From Mycobacterium sp. 050128 (GTDB lineage Bacteria > Actinomycetota > Actinomycetes > Mycobacteriales > Mycobacteriaceae): a DNA stretch of 64,000 nt. The notes beneath the pieces were generated by a model, which worked only from the letters and a program-made list of their open reading frames with translations, had not been told where the DNA came from and did no database searches. Shown in pieces: positions 16,109 to 52,796 of this stretch. The position numbers and the translations under genes were made by a program. Each line of letters starts with the position of its first letter. Positions within the stretch are counted from its first letter, which is position 1. Location: positions 532,308-596,307 of the forward strand of contig NZ_JAZGLW010000003.1 of NCBI RefSeq assembly GCF_036409155.1. Direction: 5' to 3'.

Positions 16109-18460
16109 ATGGGCAGCGGTCCAGCTGGCCGCCTTTTCCATCGGGCGCGCTCGTGGGTCGAACCAATCTTGGCGGTATTCACGTTCGCCGCCTTGGCGGC
16201 CGGGGGCGTCGCCTGGCTGGCCAGTTGGCGGGAGGTGGCCGACGGCTGCTGGATCGCCGGTACCGCAGTCGCGATCGCGCCGGCATCGGTGTGGGTGGTA
16301 TCAGGGTTGCGGCGCAAGCGCGGTGGCGTTGACATTATCGCGGTGTTGTCGCTGGTCGGAAGTCTGTTGGTCGGCGAGTATCTGGCCGGCGCGCTGATCG
16401 CAGTGATGCTGGCCAGTGGCCGTGCGCTGGATTCGGCGGCCGAACGTCGCGCGGCACACGATTTGCGTGCCCTGCTCGAGCGCGCCCCCCGATTCGCGCG
16501 GCGACGGACGGGCACGCAAGTCACGACCATACCTTTGGCGGACGTGCGTGTCGGCGACTTGCTGGTCGTCGGCCCCGGCGAGGTGGTGCCTGTGGACGGG
16601 CGGATTGCCGACGCTGTGGCGGTGCTCGACGAGTCCGCGCTGACGGGCGAATCGATGCACGTCGAGCGCCGCATCGGCGAGCCCGTCCGCAGCGGCGTGA
16701 TCAACGCGGGCAGCCCTTTCGAACTGGATGCGACCGCAACGGCTGACCAGAGCACATATGCGGGCATTGTGCGATTGGCGCAGCAGGCAGGCGCGGACAC
16801 CGCGCCGGTGGTGCGGCTGGCGGACCGTTACGCGACATGGTTTCTTCCTGCGGCGTTGATACTCGCCGCCGCGGCGTGGTTAGCGAGTGGGTCGGCCGTG
16901 CGCGCCGTGGCGGTGCTGGTGGTGGCGACCCCATGTCCGTTGTTGCTGGCAGCTCCGGTCGCAATTGTTTCCGGGTTGTCCCGGGCATCTCGTGACGGCG
17001 TGGTCATCCGCGGCGGCGGGGTCCTGGAAAACCTCGGCCGTGCGACGACGTTGGTGATGGACAAGACCGGCACCCTGACGGTGGGACGGCCCACGGTGGT
17101 CGACGTGGTAGCCGCTCCTGGTTGCGACGCGACATCGCTGCTGCGACTGGCCGCTTCGGTCGACCAGTTCTCTCCGCACGTAATGGCTGAGGCCATCGTC
17201 ACCGAAGCGCTCAGCCGCGGCCTGCGGCTGTCGCTGCCCGCCGATGTGCTCGAGCAGCCGGGCAGCGGAGTTACCGCAACCGTCGACGGATGTCGGGTTT
17301 CCGTCGGCCAACTGCCCGCGGACGCGATGACCGCCCCCTGGACACGAACGGTGCTCAATCGTGCTCGCCTGGACAGCTCAGCCATCGCGTGGGTCTGCAC
17401 CGAGAATCAGGCGGTGGGTGCCGTTTTCTTGCGAGATCCGCTGCGCCGAGAGGCGCCGCGCACCGTGCGGCGACTGCGAGAGGCGGGACTGAATCGGTTG
17501 ATCATGTTGACCGGCGACCGATTCGAGCCCACCCGCGACATCGCTGCTGTCTTGGGACTGGATGAGGTCTTTGCCGAACAGACACCGGCCGACAAGTACG
17601 CCGCGGTGCGCGCCGAAAGTGAACGGGCACCGACGGTGATGGTCGGCGACGGAGTAAATGACGCTCCCGCGTTGGCCGCCGCCACCGTCGGTGTGGCAAT
17701 GGGTGCCCGCGGCGCCACCGCCTCCTCGGAAGCCGCCGACGTGGTGTTGACCACCGATCGCATCGATCGCCTCGCTGATGCGATGGACATTGCCCGCTGG
17801 TCTCGCCGGATCGCGGTGCAAAGTGCGGTCATTGGTATGACTTTGTCGGTGCTCGCCATGGGGATTGCCGCACTGGGCTGGCTCCCGCCGGCAGCGGGGG
17901 CCCTGCTGCAGGAAGGCATTGATGTCGCGGTGATCATCAATGCGTTGCGGGCTCTGCGAGGCAATCGGGCCACCGAGGTGCCATTGACCACCGGCACCGA
18001 AGAGTTGCTGCAGCGCTTCTCCGCCGAGCACGACGAACTCCGCGACGCCATCGGGCTGCTGCGCGACAGCGCGGATCGGCTTGTTGCAGGTTCCGATGCC
18101 GTCGCGTTGGATTCGCTTGCCGCGGCACACGCCGTACTGATCGACCGGGTGCTGCCCCATGAACTGGCCGAGGAAACGCAGCTTTACCCGGCGCTGGCCA
18201 AGCCCTTGGGCAGCGAAGCCACCCCGACAATGAGCCGGACGCATGCCGAGATCCGGAGGCTCTCCGACCGCATCGGAACGCACCTAGCCATCGCGCAAGC
18301 GCAAGGGCGGATTCAGCCCGACCAAGTCGATGACTTGCTCGCGTGCCTCTACGGTCTGTACACGCTGCTGCGGCTGCACTTCGTGCAAGAAGAAGAGAAC
18401 TACTTCGTTCTAGCCGAAGATGAGACCGACCGCCACGAAAAGCACTGTCCGGCAAGCTGA
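16109..18460 (+). CDS. P1B-type heavy-metal ATPase with C-terminal hemerythrin domain (P1B-5/CtpD-like class)
   Basis: A 783-residue P-type ATPase. The actuator-domain TGE lies in DESALTGESM, the transmembrane TPCP motif is at about residues 274-277, the phosphorylation site DKTGTLT at about 318-324 and the hinge GDGVND at about 513-518. There is no N-terminal metal-binding domain. The last 150 residues form a hemerythrin-like four-helix domain with the diiron-type ligands HDE (about 641), HELAEE (684), THAEI (712) and LHFVQEEE (757). A TPC motif plus a hemerythrin tail is the hallmark of the P1B-5 subgroup, linked to Fe/Ni/Co export. The ATG at 16109 follows GAAGGGA; a TTG at 16088 is the alternative. 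The position beside dormancy genes and a weak DosR box suggest oxygen-linked control. Confidence 0.9.
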   Translation: MGSGPAGRLFHRARSWVEPILAVFTFAALAAGGVAWLASWREVADGCWIAGTAVAIAPASVWVVSGLRRKRGGVDIIAVLSLVGSLLVGEYLAGALIAVMLASGRALDSAAERRAAHDLRALLERAPRFARRRTGTQVTTIPLADVRVGDLLVVGPGEVVPVDGRIADAVAVLDESALTGESMHVERRIGEPVRSGVINAGSPFELDATATADQSTYAGIVRLAQQAGADTAPVVRLADRYATWFLPAALILAAAAWLASGSAVRAVAVLVVATPCPLLLAAPVAIVSGLSRASRDGVVIRGGGVLENLGRATTLVMDKTGTLTVGRPTVVDVVAAPGCDATSLLRLAASVDQFSPHVMAEAIVTEALSRGLRLSLPADVLEQPGSGVTATVDGCRVSVGQLPADAMTAPWTRTVLNRARLDSSAIAWVCTENQAVGAVFLRDPLRREAPRTVRRLREAGLNRLIMLTGDRFEPTRDIAAVLGLDEVFAEQTPADKYAAVRAESERAPTVMVGDGVNDAPALAAATVGVAMGARGATASSEAADVVLTTDRIDRLADAMDIARWSRRIAVQSAVIGMTLSVLAMGIAALGWLPPAAGALLQEGIDVAVIINALRALRGNRATEVPLTTGTEELLQRFSAEHDELRDAIGLLRDSADRLVAGSDAVALDSLAAAHAVLIDRVLPHELAEETQLYPALAKPLGSEATPTMSRTHAEIRRLSDRIGTHLAIAQAQGRIQPDQVDDLLACLYGLYTLLRLHFVQEEENYFVLAEDETDRHEKHCPAS

Positions 18461-18517
18461 TCCATGGCCATCTCACGGCTCGCTGCCGAACACAGGGCCG
18501 TTGATTGCGGTCGTCGA

Positions 18518-18531
18518 AGGTCCTTGGACCC
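18518..18531. promoter_or_regulatory. Candidate secondary DosR box for the Rv2628-like gene
   Basis: AGGTCCTTGGACCC is a palindrome of the DosR type (GGTCC-TT-GGACC) lying 9 bp before a stronger box. Paired strong and weak sites are usual at DosR promoters. Confidence 0.45.
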
Positions 18532-18540
18532 CCGGGTTCG

Positions 18541-18554
18541 GGGACCAAAGGCCC
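18541..18554. promoter_or_regulatory. DosR box upstream of the Rv2628-like gene
   Basis: GGGACCAAAGGCCC matches 12 of 14 core positions, flanked by TTCG and CCGAG as in the published 20-bp DosR consensus. It is about 125 bp before the Rv2628-like start. Confidence 0.7.
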
Positions 18555-18678
18555 CCGAGGTCGGGACTTCGGCGTAGCCGTCGAGACGACCGAAGCACCC
18601 CTCGCTGGATTCGTTCGCCTCTATCGGCCGAATCGGCCAACTGGTCGACTGGTCTCAAGGCCGGTCGAGGAGGCTGCG

Positions 18679-18930
18679 ATGAGGTTCGCAAAGCACACAA
18701 CGCATATTGGGCGGATGTATTGCGTTACCGATCGCCTGCACGGTGGCCGCACAGTTCAAGTGCACGGCGACGAGATCGCATCCATCGTCACGACGTGGCT
18801 GTGGGAGCTGGGTGCCTACAGCCCGCTGGTTGAGGACCTCGCGCGCGCGGCGTGCGTCGGCGACTGGTCTATGGCTTACGCCGTAGGCAACCTGTTGTCC
18901 GTTGAAGTGACCCTTGCCTCGGATGCCTAG
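18679..18930 (+). CDS. Rv2628-like DosR-regulon protein of unknown function
   Basis: An 83-residue small protein starting at ATG 18679 with GAGGAGGCT before it. The central stretch YCVTDRLHGGRTVQVHGDEI, then WLWELGAYSPLVEDLARA and a final GDWSMAYAVGNLLSVEV, parallels the M. tuberculosis dormancy protein Rv2628 as I recall it; that protein is longer at the N-terminus. No catalytic motif or membrane helix is visible and the function is unknown. Two DosR-type boxes upstream support hypoxic induction, and the next gene is an Rv3131-type nitroreductase. A longer reading from 18505 would translate through the DosR box and is rejected. Confidence 0.75.
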   Translation: MRFAKHTTHIGRMYCVTDRLHGGRTVQVHGDEIASIVTTWLWELGAYSPLVEDLARAACVGDWSMAYAVGNLLSVEVTLASDA

Positions 18931-19067: not shown

Positions 19068-20063
19068 ATGAACGCGCGCTTTCCCGATGCGGGCACGATC
19101 CGCACCGTCCTGGCTCTGGCATCTCGAGCCCCCTCCGTCCACAACACCCAACCGTGGCGATGGCTGGTCGGCGAGCAGAGCCTGCATCTCTACTCCGACG
19201 CAACCCGACAACTACCCAACACCGATCCGGACGGGCGGGACTTGATCTTGAGTTGCGGCGCGGCGCTGAATCACTGCGTCGTCGCATTCGCAGCGGTCGG
19301 ATGGCACGCCAAAGTGTCCCGCTTACCCAACCCTGCGGATACGAATCACCTTGCCGCAATCGAACTTTCACAGCACAAGGCGGACGCCTCAGACATTGCG
19401 CTCGCCGCGGCGATACCACGGCGGCGAACCGACCGCCGGCACTATAGCTCCTGGCAGGTACCCGTCGGCGACATCGCGCTGATGGCGGCGCGATCGGCGC
19501 GCCATGGTGTGACACTTTGCCAGGTCGAAGACACCGACAAGCTGCATAAGATCGTGGCGCAGTCCGTGTGGGATCACATGAACCATGACTATCTCGCCGA
19601 GCTCACGGAGTGGAGCGGCCGCTACGGCTCTCTCGCCGGCGTTCCGGCTCGCAACACGCCAAAGTCCGATCGTGATGCCACGATTCCTGGCCGGTACTTC
19701 GCCGGTCCGGTACTCGCCGAGCCGCCCGGCTCGTCATCCGCCGAAGACAACGCCGTGGTTCTCGCCCTCGGAACGCGTGCCGACGACCGGTTGGCGCGGC
19801 TGCGCGCCGGCGAGGCCACCAGTACTGTTCTGCTCACCGCTACGTCGACGGGCTTGGCCAGTTGTCCGGTTACCGAACCCCTCGAGATCCCGGAAACACG
19901 CGAGGCGGTGCGCTCCGAGATTTTCGGGAGCGCCAGTTATCCGCAGATGCTGCTGCGAGTGGGTTGGGCGCCGATCAACGCGGATCCGTTGCCATCGACA
20001 CCGCGGCGCGAACTCGCCGATTTCGTCGGGTGGATGTCGGACTTTGCAGATGTCGGCGAGTAG
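19068..20063 (+). CDS. Acg-type putative NAD(P)H nitroreductase, Rv3131-like
   Basis: A 331-residue protein of the mycobacterial Acg/nitroreductase-like family. The N-terminal SRAPSVHNTQPWRW at about residues 18-31 is the family's FMN-site signature. Further blocks are LILSCGAALNHCVVA and, near the C-terminus, YPQMLLRVGWAPINADPLP, which match Rv3131 rather than Rv2032/Acg. Family members are FMN-binding proteins strongly induced by hypoxia and nitric oxide; their substrate is unsettled and some may sequester flavin instead of reducing nitro groups. The start follows AGAAAGGGCG. It stands alone between two intergenic regions, with a DosR box upstream. Confidence 0.88.
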   Translation: MNARFPDAGTIRTVLALASRAPSVHNTQPWRWLVGEQSLHLYSDATRQLPNTDPDGRDLILSCGAALNHCVVAFAAVGWHAKVSRLPNPADTNHLAAIELSQHKADASDIALAAAIPRRRTDRRHYSSWQVPVGDIALMAARSARHGVTLCQVEDTDKLHKIVAQSVWDHMNHDYLAELTEWSGRYGSLAGVPARNTPKSDRDATIPGRYFAGPVLAEPPGSSSAEDNAVVLALGTRADDRLARLRAGEATSTVLLTATSTGLASCPVTEPLEIPETREAVRSEIFGSASYPQMLLRVGWAPINADPLPSTPRRELADFVGWMSDFADVGE

Positions 20064-20283: not shown

Positions 20284-20691
20284 TCAACCGCAACTAGCGT
20301 TGAGCGAGGCGATCGCGGCGCCCAGCTTGGCGGTGACCTCATCGGCGATCGCGATCAGCCCCGGCTCGCCGGTTACCTCCACCAATAGGCTCGGATTCAT
20401 CGCCTCGACGATTGTCGTGCCACGATTGTTCGGGTCGGCGCGCAGCAAGATATTGCAGGGGAGCAGCAATCCAATCTCTCGATCGATATTGATCGCTTGG
20501 TATGCCAACGCCGGGTTGCACGCACCAAGTATCAAATAGTCCTCCAGGTCCACACCGAGCTTCGTCTTCAGCGTCGCTTTAATGTCGATTTCGGTTAGCA
20601 CGCCAAACCCGTGTTGCGCAAGGGCTTCTCGGGTACATTTGACCGCGCGGTCAAAGTCCATATCCAGGTGGGTCGATAGCGCAACGCTCAT
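20284..20691 (-). CDS. DUF302 domain protein
   Basis: A 135-residue protein covering a single DUF302 domain: FDRAVKCTREALAQHGFGVL near the start, then ILGACNPALAYQAI and IGLLLPCNILLR. DUF302 proteins are small soluble proteins of unknown biochemical role, often found beside redox or metal-stress genes. The ATG at 20691 is preferred over 20718 because the domain starts right there. A strong DosR-type box lies about 40 bp upstream, so it is probably part of the hypoxia response, although I do not recall a DUF302 member of the M. tuberculosis DosR regulon. Confidence 0.82.
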   Translation of the reverse strand: MSVALSTHLDMDFDRAVKCTREALAQHGFGVLTEIDIKATLKTKLGVDLEDYLILGACNPALAYQAINIDREIGLLLPCNILLRADPNNRGTTIVEAMNPSLLVEVTGEPGLIAIADEVTAKLGAAIASLNASCG

Positions 20692-20728
20692 GGCAGTTAT
20701 TCGATCCTTATGCACCATGGCTGTGGTA

Positions 20729-20742
20729 GGGGCGAAAGTCCC
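20729..20742. promoter_or_regulatory. DosR box upstream of the DUF302 gene
   Basis: GGGGCGAAAGTCCC matches 12 of 14 core positions. It lies 38 bp before the DUF302 ATG and just behind the stop of the MgtA-like ATPase gene on the same strand, so the DUF302 gene probably has its own promoter. Confidence 0.65.
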
Positions 20743-20787
20743 AAGACGTCACATTCCGCACGGCGAGCGAAAACTCGCAGCCCCCGC

Positions 20788-23451
20788 TCAGGCAATCGGT
20801 GTTGGAAGAGGGCCGGAGTGGCTGAAGCGGGACGCTCGCCGGTGAATGCGGTGCACCTGTCCCCGGGTTCGGCGTAGTCGATCCGCGACGTGCATTGGTT
20901 GCGAGTAGAACCATTTCTTGGTGATCTCCACCAACACCATGTAGCAGAGGGTGAGTCCGACGAGCGCGGCGAAGAATTGCCACGGCAGCGGGCGGAATCC
21001 AAGGTTGGCGGCGAGTGGCGACACCGTCAGGATCACTCCGAGCGCGACGATCGACAGCGTGGCTGCGGTGAGTAGTGCGCCCGGTCTGCTGCGTAGGAAC
21101 GGCACCCGCTTGGTTCGGATCGCGAAGATGATGAGCGTTTGGGTAGCAAGGGATTCGACGAACCAACCGGTGCGAAACTCGATCGGCCCCGCGTGCAGGA
21201 CACCAAGCATCAGGCCGAAGGTGAGGAAGTCGAACAACGAACTGATCGGGCCGAACGACAGCATGAACCGGCGAATGAATGCAATGTTCCAGTGTGCGGG
21301 TGCCTGTAGCTGCTCGTCGTCCACCCGGTCGGTGGGAATCGCGAGCTGCGAGCTGTCGTAAAGCAGGTTGTTGAGCAAGATTTGGCTGGGCAGCATCGGG
21401 AGGAATGATAGAACGGCCGACGCCGCTGCGGCACTGAACATATTGCCGAAATTGCTTGAAGTGCCCATCAATACGTATTTGATGGTGTTAGCGAAGATGC
21501 GCCGGCCTTCGGCGACGCCTTCGGCCAATACGCTGAGGTCCTTTTCCAGAAGGACGACGTCAGCGGCGTCCTTGGCGACATCGGTGGCTGTGTCGACCGA
21601 GATGCCGACGTCGGCCGAATGGAGGGCCAGCGCGTCGTTCACCCCGTCTCCGAGGAATCCGACCGAGCGGTGGGATTGCCGCAACGAGGAAATGACGCGA
21701 GCTTTCTGCTCCGGCGAAATGCGCGCGAAGATAGTGTGGTTGCGGGCTGCCGTGGTGAGTTCTTCGTCATTGAGCTGTTGCAACTCGGCGCCGGTGATGG
21801 TGCCCTTTGAGGTTAATCCGACGTCGGTGCAGACTTTTTCGGCGACTCGGGGATTGTCGCCGGTTGCCACCTTGACCTCGATGCCCAGGGCCCTGAGCCG
21901 ATCCAATGAATCGTGCACGTCGGCTTTCGGATTGTCCGCGAAGACCAGGAAGCCCTCAAGCGTCAGACGCGCCTCGTCGGCGGCCAGCAACGTTTCCTGG
22001 CCGGGGGACGCCTTGCTGGCTACCGCGACGACACGACGACCGTCGGCAAACAACCGCGTCAACGTTGGATTGGCGGCCTCGGGAATGGCTTCGCAGCGCG
22101 CCATCACCTGTTCGGGTGCGCCCTTGACGATGATGCGCCTAGTGCCGGCACGATCGATGAGCGCCGAGGTGGCCCGACGGGTGTGGTCGAAGGGCAGCGT
22201 CGCCAGGCGCGTGACCCCGGAAACCGGAACTTGATTGCGCCATAGCGCGGCGTCGAGGTCGTTCGCGCTCACCCCGCCTGCCGAAGGGTCGACGTCGGTG
22301 GCAAGCAATCCGGAGCCCAGCACCGAGTCTGCGTGCACGCCGGCGACGTCGACGGCGTCGAGCAACTCAAGCCGGCCATCGGTCAGCGTGCCGGTCTTGT
22401 CGGTCATCAAGATGTCGATATCGCCAAGGTCCTCGATGCACACAAGGCGCTTCACCAGTACCTTGCGGCGAGCCAGCCGTCGTGAACCCGAGGCCAGGCT
22501 TGTACTGACGACAGCCGGAAGCAGTTGGGGCGTGATGCCGACCGCGATGGCCAACCCGAACAGCGCCGAATCGATGAGCGGACGTTGCAGTAGAAGATTG
22601 GTGACGATGATGACGACGGTAAGTGTCAGCGCTACTTTCAGAAGCAGATAGGAGAAGCGCCGCAGTCCTCGCTGGAAGTCGGTTTCGGGTTGGCGCTCGC
22701 CGAGCCCGACAGCGATGCGGCCGAATTCGGCGGTGGGACCCGTCGCATAGATCACCCCAACCGCCTCGCCCGCACTGACCACGGTGCCCATGAATGCCAA
22801 ACTGGATGCATCGGTGATGGTTGCACCGGGTGCGGCGGGTTCCGCGGACTTCTCCGATGGGGTCGACTCGCCGGTGAGAATGCTTTCGTTGCACTCCAAT
22901 CCGTTCACCGTGATCAGTCGCACGTCAGCCGGTACCACTTCACCGAGCTGTAATCGGATCACGTCTCCGGGAACCATCGCGGTGACATCAACGCGAGCGA
23001 ACTGACCGTCGCGACGGACCACCGCCGTATGACGCACCCGGTCGTGCAGAGCGGCCGCGGCCCGTTCTGCGCGGTATTCGTTGAAAAACGAAAGGCCGAC
23101 GCTGATCAGCAAGATGGCGCCGATGATTGTGGCTTGCGTTCCGTCGCCCAGAAAGAAGGACAGTACGGCGGTAACCGCCAATAGTGCCAACACGGCGTTG
23201 TTGAGCTGGCGCACAAGCACTGCCAAAGCGCTGACCCGATGTGTCCGAATCGAATTCGGACCGATCGTTGTCAGCCTGGCGTCCGCCTCGAGGGTCGACA
23301 GTCCGTCTTCAGAGGTACGCAACGAGCGCATCACGTCGATCAGCGGCGCGCTCGCGACGTCCTGCAGCGATCGGGCAGAGACTAGATGGGCATCGTCGCC
23401 AAGATCCGACCCATTGGTTCTGTCCGCGTAGCCGACATGAGGGGTGCCCAT
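20788..23451 (-). CDS. P-type ATPase, MgtA-like (P3B, magnesium-transport type)
   Basis: An 887-residue P-type ATPase. Motifs in order: actuator loop ILTGEST at about residues 191-197, transmembrane GITPQLLP at 305-312, phosphorylation site DKTGTLTDGR from 351, KGAPEQV in the nucleotide-binding domain and GDGVNDALAL in the hinge. The C-terminal WNIAFIRRFMLSFGPISSLF block is characteristic of MgtA/MgtB magnesium importers, not of the calcium-type CtpF. Membrane M4 has Gln where MgtA proteins usually have Glu (TPE). It shares its promoter region with the divergent rip3 gene, where two DosR boxes lie, and so resembles ctpF of M. tuberculosis in regulation but not in subtype. Confidence 0.87.
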   Translation of the reverse strand: MGTPHVGYADRTNGSDLGDDAHLVSARSLQDVASAPLIDVMRSLRTSEDGLSTLEADARLTTIGPNSIRTHRVSALAVLVRQLNNAVLALLAVTAVLSFFLGDGTQATIIGAILLISVGLSFFNEYRAERAAAALHDRVRHTAVVRRDGQFARVDVTAMVPGDVIRLQLGEVVPADVRLITVNGLECNESILTGESTPSEKSAEPAAPGATITDASSLAFMGTVVSAGEAVGVIYATGPTAEFGRIAVGLGERQPETDFQRGLRRFSYLLLKVALTLTVVIIVTNLLLQRPLIDSALFGLAIAVGITPQLLPAVVSTSLASGSRRLARRKVLVKRLVCIEDLGDIDILMTDKTGTLTDGRLELLDAVDVAGVHADSVLGSGLLATDVDPSAGGVSANDLDAALWRNQVPVSGVTRLATLPFDHTRRATSALIDRAGTRRIIVKGAPEQVMARCEAIPEAANPTLTRLFADGRRVVAVASKASPGQETLLAADEARLTLEGFLVFADNPKADVHDSLDRLRALGIEVKVATGDNPRVAEKVCTDVGLTSKGTITGAELQQLNDEELTTAARNHTIFARISPEQKARVISSLRQSHRSVGFLGDGVNDALALHSADVGISVDTATDVAKDAADVVLLEKDLSVLAEGVAEGRRIFANTIKYVLMGTSSNFGNMFSAAAASAVLSFLPMLPSQILLNNLLYDSSQLAIPTDRVDDEQLQAPAHWNIAFIRRFMLSFGPISSLFDFLTFGLMLGVLHAGPIEFRTGWFVESLATQTLIIFAIRTKRVPFLRSRPGALLTAATLSIVALGVILTVSPLAANLGFRPLPWQFFAALVGLTLCYMVLVEITKKWFYSQPMHVADRLRRTRGQVHRIHRRASRFSHSGPLPTPIA

Positions 23452-23531
23452 GCGTCCACAATGGCCACTGCGCCGGTGTCGCTCTAGCGCCGGAAGGCCG
23501 ATTACCTGTCGCTGAAAGTCACGAGGTGTTA

Positions 23532-23545
23532 GGGCACTAAGTCCC
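23532..23545. promoter_or_regulatory. DosR box in the mgtA-like/rip3 divergent promoter
   Basis: GGGCACTAAGTCCC matches 11 of 14 core positions and lies 15 bp from a stronger box. It could serve either divergent gene. Confidence 0.6.
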
Positions 23546-23559
23546 TTGTTCGGCCCTAT

Positions 23560-23573
23560 GGGACTTCAGTCCC
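23560..23573. promoter_or_regulatory. Strong DosR box in the mgtA-like/rip3 divergent promoter
   Basis: GGGACTTCAGTCCC matches 13 of 14 core positions, the best site in the window, with an ATG...TTT flank. It is about 95 bp before rip3 and 110 bp before the divergent ATPase. Confidence 0.8.
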
Positions 23574-23666
23574 TTTCCAAAAGCACGGGAAGACGATCGG
23601 ATGAAGTTCGGAGGTTGCCGGCTGACCTTCGAGTCATGCAGCGCACACGCTTTCGGAGGTTCCAAG

Positions 23667-45176: not shown

Positions 45177-45255
45177 TGCATTCTCCGATCGAACCAACGC
45201 TGGCGGGAAACCCCGCTTCATCGGCGATGTTATGAGCCTTAACTGATTCTCGGCA

Positions 45256-45269: not shown

Positions 45270-45381
45270 GTTTTTGTCGCTATTGTCCCCAGGCAACGTG
45301 GGGGACCAGTTCGATGACTTTGCGGCAACCGTTCCGGGTCACGCTTATTCGCCGGTTGAGGGTCTCTCGTCCACGCAGTTG

Positions 45382-45395
45382 GGGACGAAAGTCTC
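45382..45395. promoter_or_regulatory. DosR box for the plus-strand usp gene
   Basis: GGGACGAAAGTCTC matches 12 of 14 core positions with TTG before it, 54 bp ahead of ATG 45449. Confidence 0.7.
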
Positions 45396-45448
45396 ATGAC
45401 CGATCAGTGTTTGGACCATATCGTTCTCGATGAAGCGAAGGAGAAACC

Positions 45449-46357
45449 ATGTCAGCGTCCGCGAAGCGTTACGGAATCGTCGTCGGAGTCGACGGATCGC
45501 CCGCGTCGGATTTCGCGGTCTGCTGGGGTGCGCGGGACGCGACGTTGCGTGGTGTCGGTTTGACCTTGGTCCACATGGTGAACCTGGCCGCGCCGGTGTG
45601 GCCGCCAATGCCTCTCACCGCAGATACTCCGATATGGCAGGAAGACTATGGACGTCGCATCCTCGAAGAGGCGGAGAAGATCGCCGAAGATGCCTCAAAA
45701 ATCCATGGCCGCATCGATATCGCTACAGAGCTGATGTTTACGTCGCCGGTTGCTGCGCTGGTCGAATTGTCCGGCGAGGCAGAGATGGTCGTCGTGGGCA
45801 GTAACGGGCGCGGAGCACTGGCCCGGACGTTCCTGGGCTCGGTCAGCTCGGGCGTGGTGCGCAGCGCGAGGTGCCCGGTCGCGGTCATCCGTGACGAAGA
45901 TCTGTCGATGCCGAACCCGCTTGACGCACCTGTGCTGGTGGGCGTCGACGGCTCTGCGGCGTCGGAGCTGGCGACGGCGATTGCTTTCGACGAAGCGTCC
46001 CGGCGCGGCGTCGAACTGACGGCTTTGCATGCGTGGAGCGACGTCGGAGTGTTCGAACTTCCAAAGCCGGAGTGGCCCGCGGTGCGGGCTCAGGCCGAGG
46101 AGATCCTGGCCGAACGCCTTGCCGGTTGGCAAGAACGCTACCCCGACGTAACGGTGCATCGACTTGTCGTGTGCGACCAACCTGCTCGGCAGCTGATCGA
46201 GCAGTCGGAGTCTGCCCAGCTGGTCGTCGTCGGCAGCCACGGCCGAGGTGGCTTGGCCGGCGCGTTGTTGGGTTCGGTCAGCAATGCGGTCCTGCATGGG
46301 GTCCGGATGCCGGTGATCGTCGCACGGCCATCTATCGGCCACCCAGATGAGGACTAA
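45449..46357 (+). CDS. Universal stress protein (Rv2623/Rv1996/Rv2005c type)
   Basis: A 302-residue tandem Usp protein. Both domains keep the ATP loop: [15 protein letters not shown] in the first and [15 protein letters not shown] in the second. It is close to the protein at 43020, sharing [11 protein letters not shown] and [10 protein letters not shown] in the second domain, so the two are paralogues. The start ATG 45449 follows GAAGGAG. Its TAA stop lies inside a DosR-type box that faces the next, shrunken usp gene. Confidence 0.9.
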
Positions 46358-46416: not shown

Positions 46417-46575
46417 ATGACGGCATTCGAGAAGCGCTGCGGGATCGTCGTCAGAGACCGGCCGGGCCGCCAGCTGATCGAGCAGTCGAAGTCGGCGGAA
46501 GCGAAGCTGAGTTCGGTGAGCAACCTGGTCGTTCACGCGATCCACCCGCCGGTGATTGTGGCGCGTCACTCCTAG
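46417..46575 (+). pseudogene. Universal stress protein remnant (52 codons)
   Basis: The open frame starts FEKRCGIVV, equivalent to the first beta-strand of the usp at 45449. It jumps at once to RPGRQLIEQSKSAE, equivalent to the end of that protein's second domain, and then to LSSVSNLVVHAI and PPVIVARHS, the last strand. About 240 residues in between are gone, in two deletions that kept the reading frame. Start codon, a GGAGGG ribosome binding site and an upstream DosR box are intact, so a 52-residue peptide may still be made. A complete Usp fold is not possible. Confidence 0.7.
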
Positions 46576-46612
46576 AGCCCCAACGAATCCTCGTCGACAG
46601 GAATGTAGAGTC

Positions 46613-48151
46613 ATGAACGTTACGATTGCCGCTGACCGGCCTAGCCAAGCGCCGGCGGCAGTCGCATCGCCCTACATCGATGTCCGCGAAACCCACACCG
46701 GCATGGTGGTGCTCGCCGGGGATCGCGCCTTCAAGGCAAAGAAGCCGATCGCGACCCACTTCCTGGATTTCCGCACAACCGAGCTGCGCGAACGTGCATG
46801 CCTGCGAGAGATCGAGCTCAACGGCCGGCTGTCGCCTGAAAGCTATCTTGGCATTGCGCATCTCACTGATCCCTGCGGAGGACCGGCCGAACCGATCGTC
46901 GTCATGCGGCGCTACCGCGAAGAGGACCGGCTGACCTCCTTGATAACTCGCGGCCCCGACGACGCGGCCCGCGACGTGCTGGACACCATCGCTGACGTGC
47001 TGGCTCGATTCCACGCCCGCGCCGAGCGGAGCCTCGAGATCAGCGCCGAGGGCAAGTTGTCCGCGGTTGATGGGCGCTGGCGCCAGAACTTATCGGAACT
47101 GAACAGCTCTGTGGGCAAGCCGTTTTCAGAGATATCCTTTAAGCCGTTGGCGCGCGTTCAGCGCCTTGCTGCTGAATTCGTTTCGGGTCGGGCCCCGTTG
47201 TTCGCCCGTCGAGTCGAAGAAGGATGCATCGTCGACGGCCATGGCGATCTGCTCGCCGACGACATATTTTGGGCTGAAGGCAAGCCGGCGTTGCTCGACT
47301 GCCTGGAATTCGACGACAAGCTGCGCCATATCGACCGCATCGACGACGCGGCATTTTTGGCAATGGATCTGGAGTTCATGGGCCGCAAAGACCTTGGTGA
47401 CTATTTCGTCCAACGCTACATCGTCCACTCGGGTGACAGGGCGCCGACATCGTTGTGGGACTTCTACATCGCGTATCGCGCCGTGGTGAGAGCCAAGGTG
47501 GACTGCATTCGGCAGTCACAAGGCAACGCCGAGGCCGCCAGAGACGCGGGCCGGCACCTGGCCATTGCCGTTCGGCATCTAGAACACGGTAGCGTCCGCA
47601 TGGCGCTGGTCGGTGGGAATCCAGGAACCGGCAAGTCGACCGTCGCGCATGCACTCGCCGAAACGGTAGGAGCGCACCTGATCTCGACCGATGACGTACG
47701 TAGAGAGCTAGTAGATTCGGGCGTCATCACCGGGGGCGCGGGCATACTGAATGGGGGCTTGTACCGGTCCAGGAACGTCAGGCGGGTCTACGAGGTGGCT
47801 CTGGATCGGGCCCGCGCGCTTCTCGGCGATGGCTACTCAGTCATCCTCGACGGTACCTGGCGGGATCCACATCTACGTGCTTACGCCTATTTGGTCGCGT
47901 CCGAGATGTCCTCGGCTGTCGCGGAACTCATGTGTGTAGCAGGCGTCGAGACCGCTGCCACGAGAATACTGACCCGCCGACCAGGTAACTCCGAGGTGAC
48001 GCCGGAAATCGCGGCAGCGCTGGCGCGCGAACACAACGGCTGGGACACCGCGAGTGCGTTGGACACATCTCAGCCGTTCGAGCAAACCATCCAACAGGCA
48101 CATGCCATCTGGCGTCGGTCGGTCGCCGCTGGAATCAGCGTGTGGCCGTGA
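46613..48151 (+). CDS. Rv2004c-like protein: APH-type domain plus P-loop AAA kinase domain
   Basis: A 512-residue two-domain protein. Residues 1-330 form an aminoglycoside-phosphotransferase-like domain with FKAKKPI near the start and VDGHGDLLADDI carrying the catalytic HGD. Residues 340-512 form a P-loop kinase domain with Walker A GGNPGTGKST, then STDDVRREL and VILDGTWRD. The architecture matches Rv2004c, a DosR-regulon gene of M. tuberculosis. The substrate is unknown; the P-loop half resembles gluconate- or zeta-toxin-type kinases. The start ATG 46613 is 38 bp behind the mini-usp, and the gene leads into the ketoacyl synthase-tgs1 genes. Confidence 0.88.
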   Translation: MNVTIAADRPSQAPAAVASPYIDVRETHTGMVVLAGDRAFKAKKPIATHFLDFRTTELRERACLREIELNGRLSPESYLGIAHLTDPCGGPAEPIVVMRRYREEDRLTSLITRGPDDAARDVLDTIADVLARFHARAERSLEISAEGKLSAVDGRWRQNLSELNSSVGKPFSEISFKPLARVQRLAAEFVSGRAPLFARRVEEGCIVDGHGDLLADDIFWAEGKPALLDCLEFDDKLRHIDRIDDAAFLAMDLEFMGRKDLGDYFVQRYIVHSGDRAPTSLWDFYIAYRAVVRAKVDCIRQSQGNAEAARDAGRHLAIAVRHLEHGSVRMALVGGNPGTGKSTVAHALAETVGAHLISTDDVRRELVDSGVITGGAGILNGGLYRSRNVRRVYEVALDRARALLGDGYSVILDGTWRDPHLRAYAYLVASEMSSAVAELMCVAGVETAATRILTRRPGNSEVTPEIAAALAREHNGWDTASALDTSQPFEQTIQQAHAIWRRSVAAGISVWP

Positions 48152-48187: not shown

Positions 48188-49291
48188 ATGGCTCGGCATT
48201 GGTTGGTGATGGAGGCATCCGGCGACGGGCCTCCGGCACCGTTCGTCGCCCGGCTGGCAGGTGCCGGACGGCATTTGCCCCAGACCCACCTGACCACAGA
48301 CGAACTGATGGCGACCACACGCCACCGTACCCACATCGATCTGGAACGATTGACCGGGATCCACGAGCGGCGAGTTTCGGTGGGGGACGAGGATTCCTAC
48401 ACCCTGGCCACCTCGGCAGCACTGAATTGTCTTGCCGCCGCGCAACAGGATCCGGCATCGCTTGAGGTGGTTATCAGCTGTAGCATCACCAAGCTTCGTG
48501 GCGGTCTGACCCAATGGCTCGAGCCGTCGATGAGCAGCGCGATAGCCCGTGGGATTGGGGCGCCGCAGGCAATGACGTTCGATGTGTCGAATGCATGTGC
48601 TGGGATGCTCACCGGGGTAACGATTTTGAACAATTGGATCCGGCAGGGCATTGTCGAGCGCGGGCTGGTGGTCAGCGGAGAGTACATCTCCCAGCTCGGG
48701 CACAACGCGGCGCGCCATATCCGCAACATTATGAGCAAAGAGCTGGCGTGCCTGACCCTCGGCGATGCCGGCGCGGCACTTCTGTTGGAGCGCGCGCCCG
48801 CCGGCTCAGCGGGAATCAGCCTCGCCGGGTTCACCACGGTCGCCGACTACAGCCGGCTCTGTTTGGCTTATCCAAAAGGCCACGATCCGGGCGCGCGGAT
48901 GTTCACCAATTCCCGCGCCATTCAGAAGGCCGCGATCGCCAATACTCCGCTGCTGCTACACGAAGTACTTGACACTGTTGGTATTTCGATTCACGACATC
49001 GACCATGTCATCACGCATCAGACTTCAGCACGTGCCATCCGCAAGGGGATGGCCCGAATGTCGGAGTCGTTTGGCGACAGTCCCCGGCACGACGCCGTGA
49101 TCACCGTCGACCGGTACGGCAACACGGCATCGACGACCCATACGGTGGCCCTCGTCGAGGAACTCGAGGCGGGACGAATCGAGGCTGGAGAAAGGATCGC
49201 GCTGCTCGCGTTGGCTTCGGGATTAGAGATCGGCGTGGTCTTGCTGACCGTGGATGAGGATTTGGTGAGCCGTTATGGGCACAGTCATTGA
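48188..49291 (+). CDS. Beta-ketoacyl synthase III-like protein (thiolase superfamily)
   Basis: A 367-residue KAS III/FabH-type protein. The catalytic triad appears intact: Cys137 in FDVSNACAGM, His277 in HVITHQTSARAIRKG, and Asn312 in RYGNTAST. Typical FabH condenses an acyl-CoA starter with malonyl-ACP; OleA-type relatives join two acyl chains head to head. A long insert around residues 225-245 differs from housekeeping FabH. It follows the Rv2004c-like gene by 36 bp and overlaps the next, related gene by 17 bp, which implies co-translation and perhaps a heterodimer. Confidence 0.85.
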   Translation: MARHWLVMEASGDGPPAPFVARLAGAGRHLPQTHLTTDELMATTRHRTHIDLERLTGIHERRVSVGDEDSYTLATSAALNCLAAAQQDPASLEVVISCSITKLRGGLTQWLEPSMSSAIARGIGAPQAMTFDVSNACAGMLTGVTILNNWIRQGIVERGLVVSGEYISQLGHNAARHIRNIMSKELACLTLGDAGAALLLERAPAGSAGISLAGFTTVADYSRLCLAYPKGHDPGARMFTNSRAIQKAAIANTPLLLHEVLDTVGISIHDIDHVITHQTSARAIRKGMARMSESFGDSPRHDAVITVDRYGNTASTTHTVALVEELEAGRIEAGERIALLALASGLEIGVVLLTVDEDLVSRYGHSH

Positions 49292-50171
49292 ACGAGCCGA
49301 CGTCGCGCACTCGCGGTGGCGTGACCGGCACAGCGCGCTGCGTCTGGCGGTCAGCGTCGCCAAGGACTGTCTGCTGCACGCCGGATGCGAGCCAAATGAG
49401 TTGGATCTGGTAGTCAACGCCGGGATTTACCGCGATCGCAATCTGGGGGAGCCCGCGCTCGCCGCGCTCATTCAGGATGACATCGGAGCCAACACCGAGG
49501 ATCCGCACGCCGACGCACACGGCACGTTTTCTTTCGATGTCGCCAACGGCTCCTGCGGGCTATTGACTGCGCTGCAGATCGTCGACGGATTTCTGCGAAC
49601 GCGCAGCATCCACCGCGCCCTTGTCGTGGCCAGTGATGCCGATCCGGGCCATGGCATGAGCGAGCACTTTCCGTTTTCGGCCGCCGGTGCGGTGCTGCTG
49701 TGCGGATGGACTGACGACAGTTATGGTCTCAGCGGCGTCTCCTGGGTGAACGACGCGGTCGATGGCGACGAAGTATTCTCCGCAACAGTCGGATTCGCAG
49801 ACGCGCGTAACGTTCTTAGGTTCAATCAGTCGGCCGCGATGGATGAGCGATTCGCCGCGGCGGCCACCGAGGCGGCGCGAGCATGCCTGGATGCGCAATC
49901 GGTGCGGCTTTCCGATATCGACATGATCGTCGCCGCACCCGCGCGGCACGGCTACCGCAGCGCGTTGAGCGTCCGGCTTGGGGTGCCGATCGAGAAGATC
50001 AGTGTGGCTGACGATGAACGGATGCATACCGGCGCACTGGCGGCTGCCTTCGAGCAACAGGCTGCTCGGCTGCCGGCGGGCGCGCAAGTACTGCTCGTGG
50101 TTGCCGGTGCGGGCGTCACGGCCGGCGCCGCCTTGTACCGCCAGCCACCACCACAGAAGACGGTGTCGTGA
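49275..50171 (+). CDS. Second KAS III-like protein with altered active site
   Basis: A 298-residue thiolase-fold protein related to the preceding KAS III. The nucleophile region reads FDVANGSCGLL: compared with FDVSNACAGML of its partner, the Cys is moved one position downstream (Cys94) and Ser stands in its place. The catalytic His block is replaced by APARHGYRSAL and the GN-type Asn motif is absent. It may be a non-catalytic or differently acting subunit. It overlaps the partner's end and is followed by tgs1 with overlapping stop and start, so all three are co-expressed. The GTG/ATG spelling of its start is ATG 49275. Confidence 0.75.
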   Translation: MGTVIERADVAHSRWRDRHSALRLAVSVAKDCLLHAGCEPNELDLVVNAGIYRDRNLGEPALAALIQDDIGANTEDPHADAHGTFSFDVANGSCGLLTALQIVDGFLRTRSIHRALVVASDADPGHGMSEHFPFSAAGAVLLCGWTDDSYGLSGVSWVNDAVDGDEVFSATVGFADARNVLRFNQSAAMDERFAAAATEAARACLDAQSVRLSDIDMIVAAPARHGYRSALSVRLGVPIEKISVADDERMHTGALAAAFEQQAARLPAGAQVLLVVAGAGVTAGAALYRQPPPQKTVS

Positions 50172-51556
50172 TGGAGCATTTGAGCGCTTTCGATGCCACT
50201 TTCCTCGAGGTTGAAGACTCCGATCCGCACGTGAGTTTGGCGATCGGCAGTGTCTCGATTATGGAAGGCCCTGCTCCGAGCTACGAGGAGTTCGTTTCGA
50301 CCTTCGCCGAACGGGCACCGCAAATTCCGCGCTGCCGACAGGTCCTGCGGACGCACCCGCTAGATCTCGGCTCACCCGAATGGGCTGACGACCCGCATTT
50401 CGACGTCTCGCGGCACCTGCATCGTCTCGCCCTGCCGCACCCCGGCGACGACGCGGCGTTATTCGAGATGGTCGCGTCTGTAATGGAACGACGGCTCGAT
50501 CGCGAGCGCCCACTCTGGGAGTGCTGGATCTTCGAGGGGCTGAGCGGGGACCGGTGGGCCGTTTTGACCAAAGTCCATCACTGCATCGCCGATGGGATCG
50601 CGACAACGCAGATCCTGGCAAAATTCAGCGATAGCGGCGGCGGCGACAGCTTCGCGACCGCGATTCGTGCAGCCAGGGAGCCGGTCCGCCATGGCCTGGG
50701 CCTGCCGAAGATCAGCTTGAACCCGGTGAAGTGGGTCAGCGGGATAGCACGAAGCGCGTTTGCCGCGGCGGCCGCGGTCGAACACATGGCGATGGGTGCG
50801 GCCGAGCTGACGGCCGGTGTGCTGAGCGCGGCGCCCGATTCGTCGCTGAACGGACCGGTTACGTCGCTGCGCCGCTACAGTGTGGCCCGGGTTCGGTTGG
50901 CTGACCTGCAGGAGGTTTCTCGGGCATTCGGCGTGACGCTCAACGATGTAGCGCTGGCGGCGATCACCGACAGTTACCGCAAGATTTTGCTGGCGCGCGG
51001 TGAGCGGCCCGGCCACAACTCGCTGCGCACGCTTGTTCCGGTTTCGGTCCGCCCGGCGAATCACTTCAACATGGCCGACAATCAGGTCTCGGCAATGCTG
51101 CCGTTGCTACCGGTCGACGAGGCGGACCCAGTGAGCCAGCTGCAGGTGGTGCACAGTCGGCTCACCCGGGCCAAGGCGAGCGGCCAACGCGAAGGAGGCA
51201 CTGCGCTGACCTCGGCAGCTAAGAATGTCCCGTTCGCGTTCACGGCATGGGCCATCCGGTTGCTGTCCCGACTTCCGCAAAAGGCAGTGGTCGCGGTGGC
51301 GACCAACGTTCCCGGTCCTCGGGAGGGGCAGAAGCTGATGGGCCGGCGGGTGCTGGAGATCCTTCCGATCCCGCCGATCGCTCTCAACGTGCGTACCGCC
51401 GTCGCGATGCTCAGCTACGCCGACCAGTTCATTTTCGGCATCACCGCGGACTACGACACTGCGCCCGACATCGACGCGCTGGCCGCAGGAATTGAGGATG
51501 GGGTTTTACACCTCGTCAAGGCCAGCGGCATGCACCGAGGCAGAGCACGTTCGTAA
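50171..51556 (+). CDS. tgs1: Triacylglycerol synthase (WS/DGAT family), Tgs1/Rv3130c-like
   Basis: A 461-residue wax-ester synthase/diacylglycerol acyltransferase. The catalytic HHxxxDG motif is HHCIADG at residues 136-142; the second conserved block is SLNGPVTSLRRYSVARV, and later NVPGPREGQKLMGRRV. It matches Tgs1, the main hypoxia-induced triacylglycerol synthase of the DosR regulon, which esterifies diacylglycerol with acyl-CoA to store lipid. Start is ATG 50171 or GTG 50168, both overlapping the previous stop. It is translationally coupled to the two KAS III-like genes, an arrangement I do not recall from M. tuberculosis, where tgs1 is separate. Confidence 0.93.
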   Translation: MEHLSAFDATFLEVEDSDPHVSLAIGSVSIMEGPAPSYEEFVSTFAERAPQIPRCRQVLRTHPLDLGSPEWADDPHFDVSRHLHRLALPHPGDDAALFEMVASVMERRLDRERPLWECWIFEGLSGDRWAVLTKVHHCIADGIATTQILAKFSDSGGGDSFATAIRAAREPVRHGLGLPKISLNPVKWVSGIARSAFAAAAAVEHMAMGAAELTAGVLSAAPDSSLNGPVTSLRRYSVARVRLADLQEVSRAFGVTLNDVALAAITDSYRKILLARGERPGHNSLRTLVPVSVRPANHFNMADNQVSAMLPLLPVDEADPVSQLQVVHSRLTRAKASGQREGGTALTSAAKNVPFAFTAWAIRLLSRLPQKAVVAVATNVPGPREGQKLMGRRVLEILPIPPIALNVRTAVAMLSYADQFIFGITADYDTAPDIDALAAGIEDGVLHLVKASGMHRGRARS

Positions 51557-51612
51557 CCAAGCGAAGGGTTGCACAACCGCTGTGGTACAGCTGACGAAGG
51601 TCCTCCACGCTA

Positions 51613-51626
51613 GCGACTTCGGTCCC
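51613..51626. promoter_or_regulatory. Candidate DosR box downstream of tgs1
   Basis: GCGACTTCGGTCCC matches 11 of 14 core positions with TTTC after it, 37 bp before the small open frame at 51663. No annotated large gene follows closely. Confidence 0.5.
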
Positions 51627-51662
51627 TTTCAAGGGCTTTCGAGAATTGCTGGGATAGAAGTT

Positions 51663-51833
51663 ATGGCTCGTGTTGCAGGAGCGAAAGTAATTGTCCTCCA
51701 GTCACACCCGGTTTGGATTGCCGCTCAACAGCTTGCGCGCGAGCGTAGCGAAGCGATGCGCCGCCATCCCTCATTCGGCGCCCATCAGCGTGCGGTCGGC
51801 CAGGGGGATGTCGGACTTCCCGGGAGCCGTTGA
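51663..51833 (+). CDS. Small hypothetical protein (56 aa)
   Basis: A 56-codon open frame starting MARVAGAKVIVLQSHP and continuing with the Arg-rich RERSEAMRRHPSFGAHQRAV. It has a mediocre GGGATAGAAG ribosome site. A DosR-type box stands 37 bp upstream, at the spacing seen for real DosR promoters, which is the main support. No family is recognised and there is no membrane helix. It may be a genuine small dormancy protein or the remains of a longer gene. Confidence 0.35.
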   Translation: MARVAGAKVIVLQSHPVWIAAQQLARERSEAMRRHPSFGAHQRAVGQGDVGLPGSR

Positions 51834-51921
51834 CAGCTTGCACGCCGTTGCGTGAAGGCGTCGACGTCGCAATGCCATTCGCGGCGCCCGGCGATTGACG
51901 GGTATTCCGTCATACACGCAC

Positions 51922-51931
51922 ACATATATGT
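51922..51931. promoter_or_regulatory. AT-rich palindrome in the SDR promoter
   Basis: ACATATATGT is a perfect 10-bp palindrome flanked by CATACA and ATG, 83 bp before the SDR start. It could be a -10-like element or an operator. Confidence 0.25.
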
Positions 51932-52013
51932 ATGGTGACGATTGGGCCGGAGTAGCGTGTTTCGGCTTAGCCTATTCAGACCCGGATGACGCACCACATG
52001 ACAGGAGAACGCA

Positions 52014-52796
52014 GTGGCAGAACGGCTGGCGGGCAAGGTGGCGCTGATTAGTGGGGGTGCGCGGGGGATGGGTGCCTCGCACGTGCGGATGCTGGTGGAT
52101 GAGGGAGCCAAGGTCGTGTTCGGCGACATCCTCGACGACGAAGGCAAGGCAGTAGCGGCGGAGGTCGGCGACTCGGCTCGTTACCTGCATCTCGATGTGA
52201 CGAAGCCCGACGACTGGGATGCCGCGGTAGCCACCGCGCTGCACGAGTTCGGCAGCGTCGACGTGCTGGTGAACAACGCCGGCATCATCAACATCGGCAC
52301 CTTTGAGGACTACGCGCTCATGGAATGGCAGCGGATCCTCGACATCAATTTGACCGGTGTGTTTCTCGGCATCCGCGCCGTGGTGGCACCGATGAAGGAA
52401 GCCGGACGCGGCTCGATCATCAACATCTCTTCGATCGAAGGTATTGCCGGTACGATCGCCTGCCACGGTTACACGGCAACGAAATTCGCTGTCCGGGGTT
52501 TGACAAAGTCGGCGGCGCTGGAGCTCGGACCCAGCGGAATCCGAGTGAACTCAATCCATCCCGGCCTGATCAAGACCCCGATGACCGAGTGGGTTCCCGA
52601 CGACCTCTTCCAGACCGCGCTCGGCCGGGCTGCCGACCCCAAGGAGGTCTCCAGTCTGGTGGTCTATCTGGCCAGCGACGAGTCCAGCTATTCCACGGGT
52701 TCGGAGTTCGTGGTCGACGGCGGCACCACCGCCGGCTTGGGGCACAAAGATTTTTCCGCCGTGCAGACCGATGCGCAACCGGAGTGGGTTACGTAG
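52014..52796 (+). CDS. fabG3: Short-chain dehydrogenase, FabG3/Rv2002-like (3alpha,20beta-hydroxysteroid dehydrogenase type)
   Basis: A 260-residue classical [18 protein letters not shown] at the Rossmann turn (about 12-26), NNAGI near 87, ISSIEG with the catalytic Ser near 138, YTATK (about 153-157) as the active-site pair, and [11 protein letters not shown] at the end. It is close to M. tuberculosis Rv2002/FabG3 throughout, an NADH-dependent hydroxysteroid dehydrogenase. Start GTG 52014 follows AGGAGAACGCA. In M. tuberculosis Rv2002 lies near Rv2004c-Rv2007c, so its position at the end of this island is in keeping. Its stop overlaps the convergent mmpL stop by eight bases. Confidence 0.92.

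Follow-up and report, generated by a model that had tools for sequence, protein, structure and literature searches.

The DosRST system of Mycobacterium tuberculosis (Mtb) is the model in work on mycobacterial dormancy, and the genes of the Mtb DosR regulon are dispersed over the genome. Its regulator DosR and the kinases DosS and DosT are Rv3133c, Rv3132c and Rv2027c (PMC5322544). In M. smegmatis, Berney and Cook described two hypoxia-induced clusters beside DevRS copies, one of them, msmeg_3926-3955, a contiguous block of 31 genes reported in 2010 (PMC2799521), and two regulators, dosR1 and dosR2, have been named in this species (PMC6898941). Among other mycobacteria, the M. kansasii genome paper gives a single DosR (PMC5322544), and another paper describes a slow grower that has a DosR and a DosT-like kinase yet lacks DosS (PMC11361433). 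Further afield, the lxa locus of Burkholderia cenocepacia (BCAM0275-0323) is a low-oxygen block of 50 genes (PMC6127331). The present analysis concerns a cluster of DosR-type genes in a 64,000-nucleotide stretch of the slow-growing Mycobacterium sp. 050128, hereafter the window (G000:C3:532308-596307), which comes from a 6.73 Mb draft genome in 52 contigs rated 100% complete and ends where its contig ends. A literature search that covered few subscription papers returned no account of two DosR loci in slow growers, of a separate lineage as the sole DosRS in a slow-grower clade, or of the pyruvate cassette described below. A 2011 paper by Gerasimova, cited in PMC10034137, may bear on the first of these points.

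Between about 16.0 and 51.6 kb of the window run some 30 genes of the DosR-regulon type, most of them named with family-level support. Judged from sequence, this region is very probably a DosR-type island for survival of hypoxia and nitric oxide (NO), governed by a regulator pair of its own that is not orthologous to that of Mtb, with a clustered arrangement that is common to its relatives. It contains a DosR/NarL-type response regulator and a DosS-type GAF kinase (Pfam; structure 3C3W), effectors that match at family level the universal stress protein (Usp), HspX, Acg/Rv3131, FdxA, Tgs and Rv2030c types, and predicted boxes that exceed the background at promoters. The original prediction had proposed one consolidated 36-kb DosR block, and both the gene content and the boxes of the block itself bear this out. 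Since the M. smegmatis cluster is already published, a DosR supercluster in one contiguous piece has precedent; what is newer is that the regulators form a lineage apart and that a five-gene pyruvate module is tied into the block.

The lineage of the pair is seen in two trees. The DosR tree held 65 rows, Mtb DevR included, and a row was labelled as supercluster-type by its neighbourhood or its type of DosS. The window DosR falls in a clade of 32 supercluster-type rows (100/96). Mtb DevR groups with nine locus-1 copies (100/96), which lie in another neighbourhood with DosS of the other type and with variable numbers of Rv3131-type, Tgs, PNPOx and Acg genes. In the DosS tree, 24 rows, the window included, are split from 23 others at 100/100. 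Mtb DosS and DosT were compared outside this tree, by GAF-A identity, and the best values for DosT and DosS (DevS) reach 84 and 87% with the other lineage as against 58 and 53% with the window lineage. Neither the window DosR nor its DosS shares one clade with Mtb DevR and DosS/DosT, and on these sequence grounds the window pair is not orthologous to the Mtb pair. The idea that the orphan kinase DosT of Mtb is a relic of the supercluster DosS was rejected, as its GAF-A domain shares 81–84% identity with its six closest matches in the other lineage and no more than 58% with any member of the window lineage.

Among 13 genomes searched together, nine have a single DosR (E ≤ 1e-50), which is of the window lineage (G000, G404, G366, G027, G134, G155, G103, G123, G093), and three have two each at the same threshold (G125, G067, G019). 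G019 was considered as a case of an orphan supercluster-type DosS and set aside once a second DosR was found at 2780736. In G000 no second full-length DosS was found at E ≤ 1e-60, only a 230-residue kinase match, and given its single DosR a locus of the Mtb type was thus not found in the window genome. Another DosS-type kinase, at 57–58%, is present in G134 and G093. When 12 genomes were chosen for second or both DosR copies, seven of them proved to carry both loci (G025, G067, G051, G149, G105, G084, G152); G117, G048, G003, G127 and G144 have two DosR copies each, none of the window lineage. As a separate observation, the complete 4.5 Mb genome G098 (L179, L214, L215) has kept an HspX-Rv2030-Usp-DosS run in which the kinase is orphaned; its species may be close to the Mtb complex.

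An alternative is that the block represents the ancestral form of the Mtb regulon, with Mtb DosRS its direct descendant and the genes scattered later. Its HspX-Rv2030, M50-Usp and FdxA-Usp-Usp-Rv2004 runs do resemble short runs in Mtb, in the order we presume for that genome, but the lineage of the window DosR and DosS differs from that of Mtb DevR, DosS and DosT, and seven genomes carry both loci, which makes direct descent doubtful. The effector genes, unlike the regulators, may have descended from a common block with Mtb. The block is not just the Mtb regulon gathered at one site: the effector families are alike, but DosR and DosS belong to a lineage that occurs together with the other in seven of the 12 chosen genomes.

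The second line of evidence is the boxes. A strict Mtb box consensus has no site in the window even with four mismatches allowed; in the whole genome it has two sites with three mismatches, both outside the window. It is too strict for this genome, and a matrix was used in its place, trained on 60 seeds from 27 of the 37 loci L101–L137 with the window excluded. Sites of at least 8 bits number 16 in the 36.9-kb block (0.43 per kb) and one in the other 27.1 kb of the window, against 21 in 400 kb of background from the same genome (0.05 per kb). The corresponding counts for block, rest of window and background are 12, 0 and 6 at 10 bits or more, 9, 0 and 2 at 13 bits or more, and 7, 0 and 10 for exact matches to the GGGNCNNNNGNCCC core. 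Thirteen of the 16 block boxes lie outside called genes; the remaining three are inside the genes at 18505 and 44361 and the CtpF gene. The boxes in the block are real, and the weight-matrix scan that the original prediction had proposed places them far above the genomic background, although there are about 16 of them and not the nineteen or so first counted. The block, with the genes named by Pfam, NCBIfam and solved-structure searches of the window open reading frames (ORFs), reads as follows.

16002–16021, no strand: DosR-type box (9.6 bits), left border of the regulated block, before the P-type ATPase/hemerythrin gene; a box of at least 8 bits precedes the gene in both of the 2 genomes where it was within reach
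16088–18460, plus: heavy-metal P-type ATPase fused to a hemerythrin domain (PF00122, PF00702, PF01814; NCBIfam)
18505–18930, plus: small protein, first called Rv2628-like; box 18538–18557 (13.1 bits) within the called 5' end
19068–20063, plus: Rv3131/Acg-family flavin mononucleotide (FMN) oxidoreductase (NF047509, 338 bits)
20284–20718, minus: DUF302 protein (PF03625); box 20726–20745 (18.1 bits)
20788–23451, minus: cation P-type ATPase (Pfam), presumably CtpF-like; boxes 23529–23548 and 23557–23576 (15.8 and 19.3 bits)
23601–24848, plus: M50 peptidase with CBS domain (PF02163, PF00571), presumably Rv2625c-like
24856–25677, plus: Usp (PF00582)
25371–27116, plus: LPG_synthase_C protein (PF09924)
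27135–27644, minus: pyridoxamine-phosphate-oxidase-like protein (PNPOx; PF12900), presumably Rv3129-like
27589–28680, minus: Acg nitroreductase, an Rv3131/Acg-type FMN oxidoreductase (2YMV, 340 bits; NF047509); box 28710–28729 (18.7 bits)
28734–28994, minus: stand-alone acyl carrier protein (ACP), module gene 5 (PF00550; DSM serine motif kept)
29001–30404, minus: dihydrolipoyl acyltransferase E2, module gene 4 (PF00198, PF00364, PF02817); called start probably too early
30206–31339, minus: pyruvate dehydrogenase (PDH) E1 beta, module gene 3 (NF006667, 401 bits); called start probably too early
31180–32151, minus: PDH E1 alpha, module gene 2 (TIGR03182, 444 bits)
32148–34028, minus: acetate-CoA ligase-like AMP-binding enzyme (FACL), module gene 1 (NF003313/PRK04319, 905 bits)
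34121–34140, no strand: box in the divergent FACL/nitroreductase promoter (9.5 bits)
34195–35181, plus: third Rv3131-family oxidoreductase, NTR34 (NF047509, 318 bits)
35223–35519, minus: deazaflavin-dependent nitroreductase-family protein (TIGR00026)
35921–36721, plus: Usp (PF00582); box 35775–35794 (17.9 bits)
36862–37293, plus: HSP20, HspX-like (PF00011); box 36778–36797 (10.7 bits)
37301–39346, plus: phosphoribosyltransferase and erythromycin esterase fusion, Rv2030c-like (PF05139, PF00156)
39627–39646, no strand: box before dosR (14.0 bits)
39750–40406, plus: DosR, supercluster lineage (DevR structure 3C3W, 378 bits; clade separate from Mtb DevR)
40588–42303, plus: DosS-type GAF-GAF-HisKA_3-HATPase kinase, supercluster lineage (Pfam domains; tree; DosT/DevS GAF, 154–161 bits)
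42449–43006, plus: GNAT acetyltransferase (PF00583); box 42355–42374 (9.8 bits)
43020–43904, plus: tandem Usp (PF00582)
43990–44349, plus: FdxA ferredoxin (NF045480, 160 bits); box 43915–43934 (10.1 bits)
44361–45296, minus: Usp (PF00582), start probably too early; box 45253–45272 (15.1 bits) within the called gene
45449–46357, plus: tandem Usp, TB31.7-like (2JAX, 329 bits), TB31.7 being, we take it, Rv2623; box 45379–45398 (12.0 bits)
46556–48151, plus: AAA_33 P-loop protein (PF13671), presumably Rv2004c-like
48188–49291, plus: KAS III-like protein 1 (PF08541/PF08545), Cys-His-Asn triad read by eye
49275–50171, plus: KAS III-like protein 2 (PF08541), Cys kept, His and Asn not seen when the residues were read by eye
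50168–51556, plus: wax ester synthase/DGAT, Tgs1-like (TIGR02946, 416 bits)
51610–51629, no strand: last box, between the wax ester synthase/DGAT gene and Rv2002, 395 bp before Rv2002 (14.4 bits)
52014–52796, plus: Rv2002, a short-chain dehydrogenase/reductase, border gene (1NFF, 471 bits)

Most of the gene names first proposed are supported at family level; the HspX name of the 36862 gene is backed as HSP20 family only, and the name Rv2628 could not be verified, the 18505 ORF having no match in Pfam or NCBIfam. The Rv names other than Acg, TB31.7, Rv2002 and DevR are our presumption from matches of domain or family. Five Usp ORFs lie in the block, and its three Rv3131/Acg-type FMN oxidoreductases (19068, 27589, 34195) match NF047509 at 318–338 bits. 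Because boxes lie inside the called 5' ends of the 18505 gene and the 44361 Usp gene, the true starts of both are probably downstream; the start at 25371 is uncertain because the 5' end overlaps the Usp gene at 24856. The first ATPase carries its hemerythrin domain at the C-terminal end, an arrangement that could couple metal export to a domain that binds oxygen or iron. The KAS III-like pair upstream of the wax ester synthase/DGAT may combine a condensing enzyme and a partner without condensing activity.

Recurrence of the boxes was scanned in 14 relatives, taking a box of at least 8 bits in the 400 bp before a gene and leaving out genomes in which the gene was not within reach; such a box occurs in 21 of 900 background windows. 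It is present before Acg in 10 of 11 genomes, FACL in 8 of 8, NTR34 in 12 of 13 and GNAT in 8 of 8, and likewise before Usp359 (4/4), HspX (4/4), FdxA (6/7), Usp444 (10/12) and Usp454 (10/13). The gene is within reach in fewer genomes for M50CBS (3/4), DUF302 (3/3), CtpF (2/2), PATPhr (2/2), h185 (1/1) and NTR3131 (3/5). Lower fractions are seen before Rv2030 (6/11), PNPOx (2/13), LPGs (1/9) and Usp430 (2/11), and none before Rv2004 (0/13) and KS1 (0/10), two genes inside units. The boxes thus recur at the starts of transcription units and not at genes inside them. Such recurrence helps to separate regulated genes from mere neighbours: the expectation that position in the block would reveal members of the regulon finds support for the FACL/PDH/ACP operon, GNAT, DUF302 and the nitroreductases, but not for MmpL (0/5) and NhaP (1/5).

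The right border is less clear. Rv2002 had been taken as the last gene of the block, and with a box within 400 bp in 0 of 6 genomes it was initially placed outside the regulon; this was withdrawn as too strong after the 700 bp before the gene were scanned. In four of the five genomes that have a gap between Tgs and Rv2002, a box lies 395–496 bp upstream (14.4 bits in the window, 14.4 in G404, 9.9 in G103 and 10.5 in G134); G027 has one of 7.4 bits at 342 bp. The same 700-bp scan found no box in G123, and in G155 a 12.5-bit box located where FdxA starts. With near boxes lacking and farther gap boxes present, the scans neither establish the right border first drawn nor rule it out. Rv2002 stands next to the block in G000, G155, G103, G027, G123, G134 and G404 and is on another contig or far off in G090, G014, G093, G125, G152 and G067. 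The gap itself (51557–52013), with its 14.4-bit box about 400–500 bp before Rv2002, could hold a long leader, a small gene or a small RNA.

Clustering was counted around a DosR copy in 30 genomes, with 31 block genes scored within 20 kb. The 14 copies of the window lineage have a median of 17 of these genes (range 3–27), and the 16 other copies a median of 4 (range 1–11). The synteny comparison called for in the original prediction finds the block collinear from NhaP to MmpS in G404, at 88–100% per gene (68% for h185), and nearly so from DUF302 to Tgs in M. ahvazicum AFP003 (G366), which has an extra Usp and no HspX match; large parts are present in many named slow growers. NhaP and Rv2002 are separated by 36.0 kb in the window, 35.8 kb in G404 and 21.8 kb in G123, but 6.9 kb in G155 (L025/L026), where the block is cut to 7 kb and the flanks NhaP and Rv2002-MmpL-MmpS are kept with a handful of block genes. 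The G155 locus is best read, from its gene order, as a natural contraction of the block. The clustered state is common to the clade, with gene turnover at the edges and inside. As to whether the consolidated state is ancestral or a later gathering, a choice that the original prediction had posed, its wide occurrence in the clade and its contraction in G155 speak against a late gathering peculiar to the window genome. A gathering peculiar to the species, or a horizontally acquired island, is accordingly very improbable: the GC content per 2 kb (0.60–0.67 in the block, 0.64–0.68 to its left and 0.61–0.66 to its right) differs weakly in its favour, and the right neighbour Rv2002/MmpL is common to a subset of carriers only, but the same content and order in G404, nearly so in M. 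ahvazicum, with large parts in many named slow growers, and the single lineage that the DosR and DosS trees give across many species, oppose it.

The five-gene module is the part of the block with the widest reach. Its E1 alpha gene is found in 57 of 158 genomes of the genus, the window genome included (E ≤ 1e-120); at least 40 of the 57 are on a contig with a listed DosR, and at least 34 of these lie within 60 kb of it. Among the best 80 of 576 loci, which include Gordonia, Rhodococcus, Aromatoleum, Sulfuritalea, Binatia and others, the five genes are in the same order and on the same strand in 71, and in the other nine one or two genes are missing, in some cases where a contig ends. The gene order of the operon is thus conserved from mycobacteria to Betaproteobacteria. 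In a midpoint-rooted tree of E1 alpha and E1 beta (51 rows, thinned by hand from the 80), the named mycobacteria form one clade (100/100) adjoining Gordonia; L136, a binned Mycobacteriaceae contig, is outside it beside the Rhodococcus rows, and the proteobacteria and Agromyces lie across the midpoint root.

In mycobacteria, most copies of this operon have a DosR-type box. All 20 test loci (L081–L100) have a box of at least 9.4 bits upstream of FACL, and among L101–L137, which also supplied the matrix seeds, 30 of 37 have one of 8 bits or more (8.0 in L117); L102, L104, L109, L127, L129 and L136 have none, and in L128 FACL is off the contig. The background for such a box is 2.1% of 1020 windows. 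Nine mycobacterial loci (L107, L110, L112, L113, L120, L123, L127, L131, L134) carry the operon without other block genes in up to 10 kb per side; eight of the nine have a box of at least 8 bits upstream, though their group, L101–L137, also gave the seeds. Beyond the mycobacteria, the box is found before the cassette in a Deinococci bin (L155, 10.7), in Agromyces (L153, 13.8) and in two of four Rhodococcus/Prescottella loci (L139, L147), and at 8 bits or more in none of the 10 Pseudomonadota loci.

An FNR-type site (TTGATNNNNATCAA, with up to two mismatches allowed) precedes the cassette in six of these 10 Pseudomonadota loci (L140, L145, L149, L151, L152, L160), against 9.2% of 469 windows from the same loci, although L145 and L149 are near-copies and several sites are placed at an aligned start of unsure true position. 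At the same tolerance it is absent before the cassette in L141, L154, L157 and L158, and the mycobacterial loci L081 and L105 also hold such a site with one mismatch. The sites before the Betaproteobacterial cassettes are a weak hint. An HSP20 gene is near at least four of the 10 Pseudomonadota loci, in L141, L145 and L149 by homology and in L149 and L158 by a Pfam check of 10 ORFs of four loci. The same-order cassette in Betaproteobacteria and other phyla can adjoin small heat-shock genes and may answer to FNR-type regulators. From its composition, the operon would be a PDH variant with its own carrier that yields acetyl units for lipid or, with the ligase, acetate and ATP, and the cassette is a candidate for pyruvate handling when oxygen runs out. 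The idea that it forms one pathway with the KAS III pair is weakened, because in G103 and G014 the pair is present while the operon is missing from the 40 kb covered.

From the observed gene content, the boxes and their recurrence, and the lineage of the pair, a mechanism can be proposed. The first GAF domain of the DosS-type kinase would detect low oxygen, NO or the redox state, and the kinase would phosphorylate the adjacent DosR, which would bind GGGNCNNNNGNCCC-type palindromes at the starts of transcription units and turn the block on. The set so induced would comprise the Usp proteins, HSP20, FMN oxidoreductases, the two P-type ATPases, ferredoxin, the wax ester/triacylglycerol synthase and the pyruvate-to-acetyl operon with its own ACP; when respiration stops, this operon would probably dispose of pyruvate carbon or make acetyl units for lipid.

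Several points weigh against the reading of the region as a clustered island under its own regulator lineage. Three of the 32 rows in the DosR clade (L100, L137, L175) were labelled as supercluster-type only after the first tree had placed them there; their neighbourhoods fit the label, and the supercluster group requires four changes on the first tree, with its incomplete labels, and one after the three rows were relabelled. Membership of the DosS groups was set by a cut-off of at least 50% identity to the window DosS. The core GGGNCNNNNGNCCC used for seeding derives from the Mtb consensus, and the matrix, seeded with exact matches, is therefore biased to that core. A box precedes dosR in just 2 of 14 relatives, many of which have Usp genes between Rv2030 and dosR. 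Contracted contexts occur within the lineage (six block genes in G155, three in G041, seven in G004), and a few copies outside it are gene-rich, such as that of G054 with 11 block genes. Lastly, G098 keeps a window-type DosS with no DosR beside it, and its sole DosR (E ≤ 1e-50) is of the Mtb lineage. That the boxes serve another NarL/LuxR-family regulator, with the block co-regulated with but not by the window DosR, is very improbable: G098 does have the cluster without its DosR, and the core of the box is also compatible with the OsdR site of Streptomyces (PMC5069765), so that related regulators may overlap, but DosR lies within the block, the boxes are of the DosR/OsdR type, and the genome has a single DosR at E ≤ 1e-50.

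On the reading of an island with its own regulator lineage, it is tentatively possible that a second DosRS lineage with its own block runs hypoxia survival in many slow growers, that it has replaced the Mtb type in the clade of the window, and that it has absorbed a five-gene anoxia cassette that is wired to unrelated oxygen sensors elsewhere. If so, DosR calls in slow growers need division into two lineages, and if the second lineage is common in slow growers and the sole one in some, results from Mtb are not transferable by gene name.

Compared with known systems, the block is most easily set beside msmeg_3926-3955, which is likewise contiguous, made up mostly of Dos-regulon homologues, located beside a DevR/DevS copy and induced at low oxygen; there, an NiFe hydrogenase, a P-type ATPase and a PEP synthase are named as genes outside the Mtb Dos set (PMC2799521). 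Hydrogenase and PEP synthase families are not among 40 window ORFs in Pfam scans, and the window differs from the cluster as published in its PDH/ACP/ligase operon, the two being likened by gene content and not by regulator lineage. The lxa locus has six Usp, a heat-shock protein of the alpha-crystallin type and a protein resembling flavin/nitro-reductases, and its authors compare it with the DosR regulon; the word "pyruvate" does not occur in the main text of that paper (PMC6127331). In OsdRK of Streptomyces coelicolor, most Usp and several conserved targets are near the pair and the site AGGGCCGATCGGCCCT is palindromic, but the system belongs to another order of Actinomycetota, has a developmental role and lies in a looser neighbourhood (PMC5069765). 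With the DosR regulon of Mtb, finally, the block shares effector families, regulator type and box type, and it differs in having a regulator pair of another lineage.

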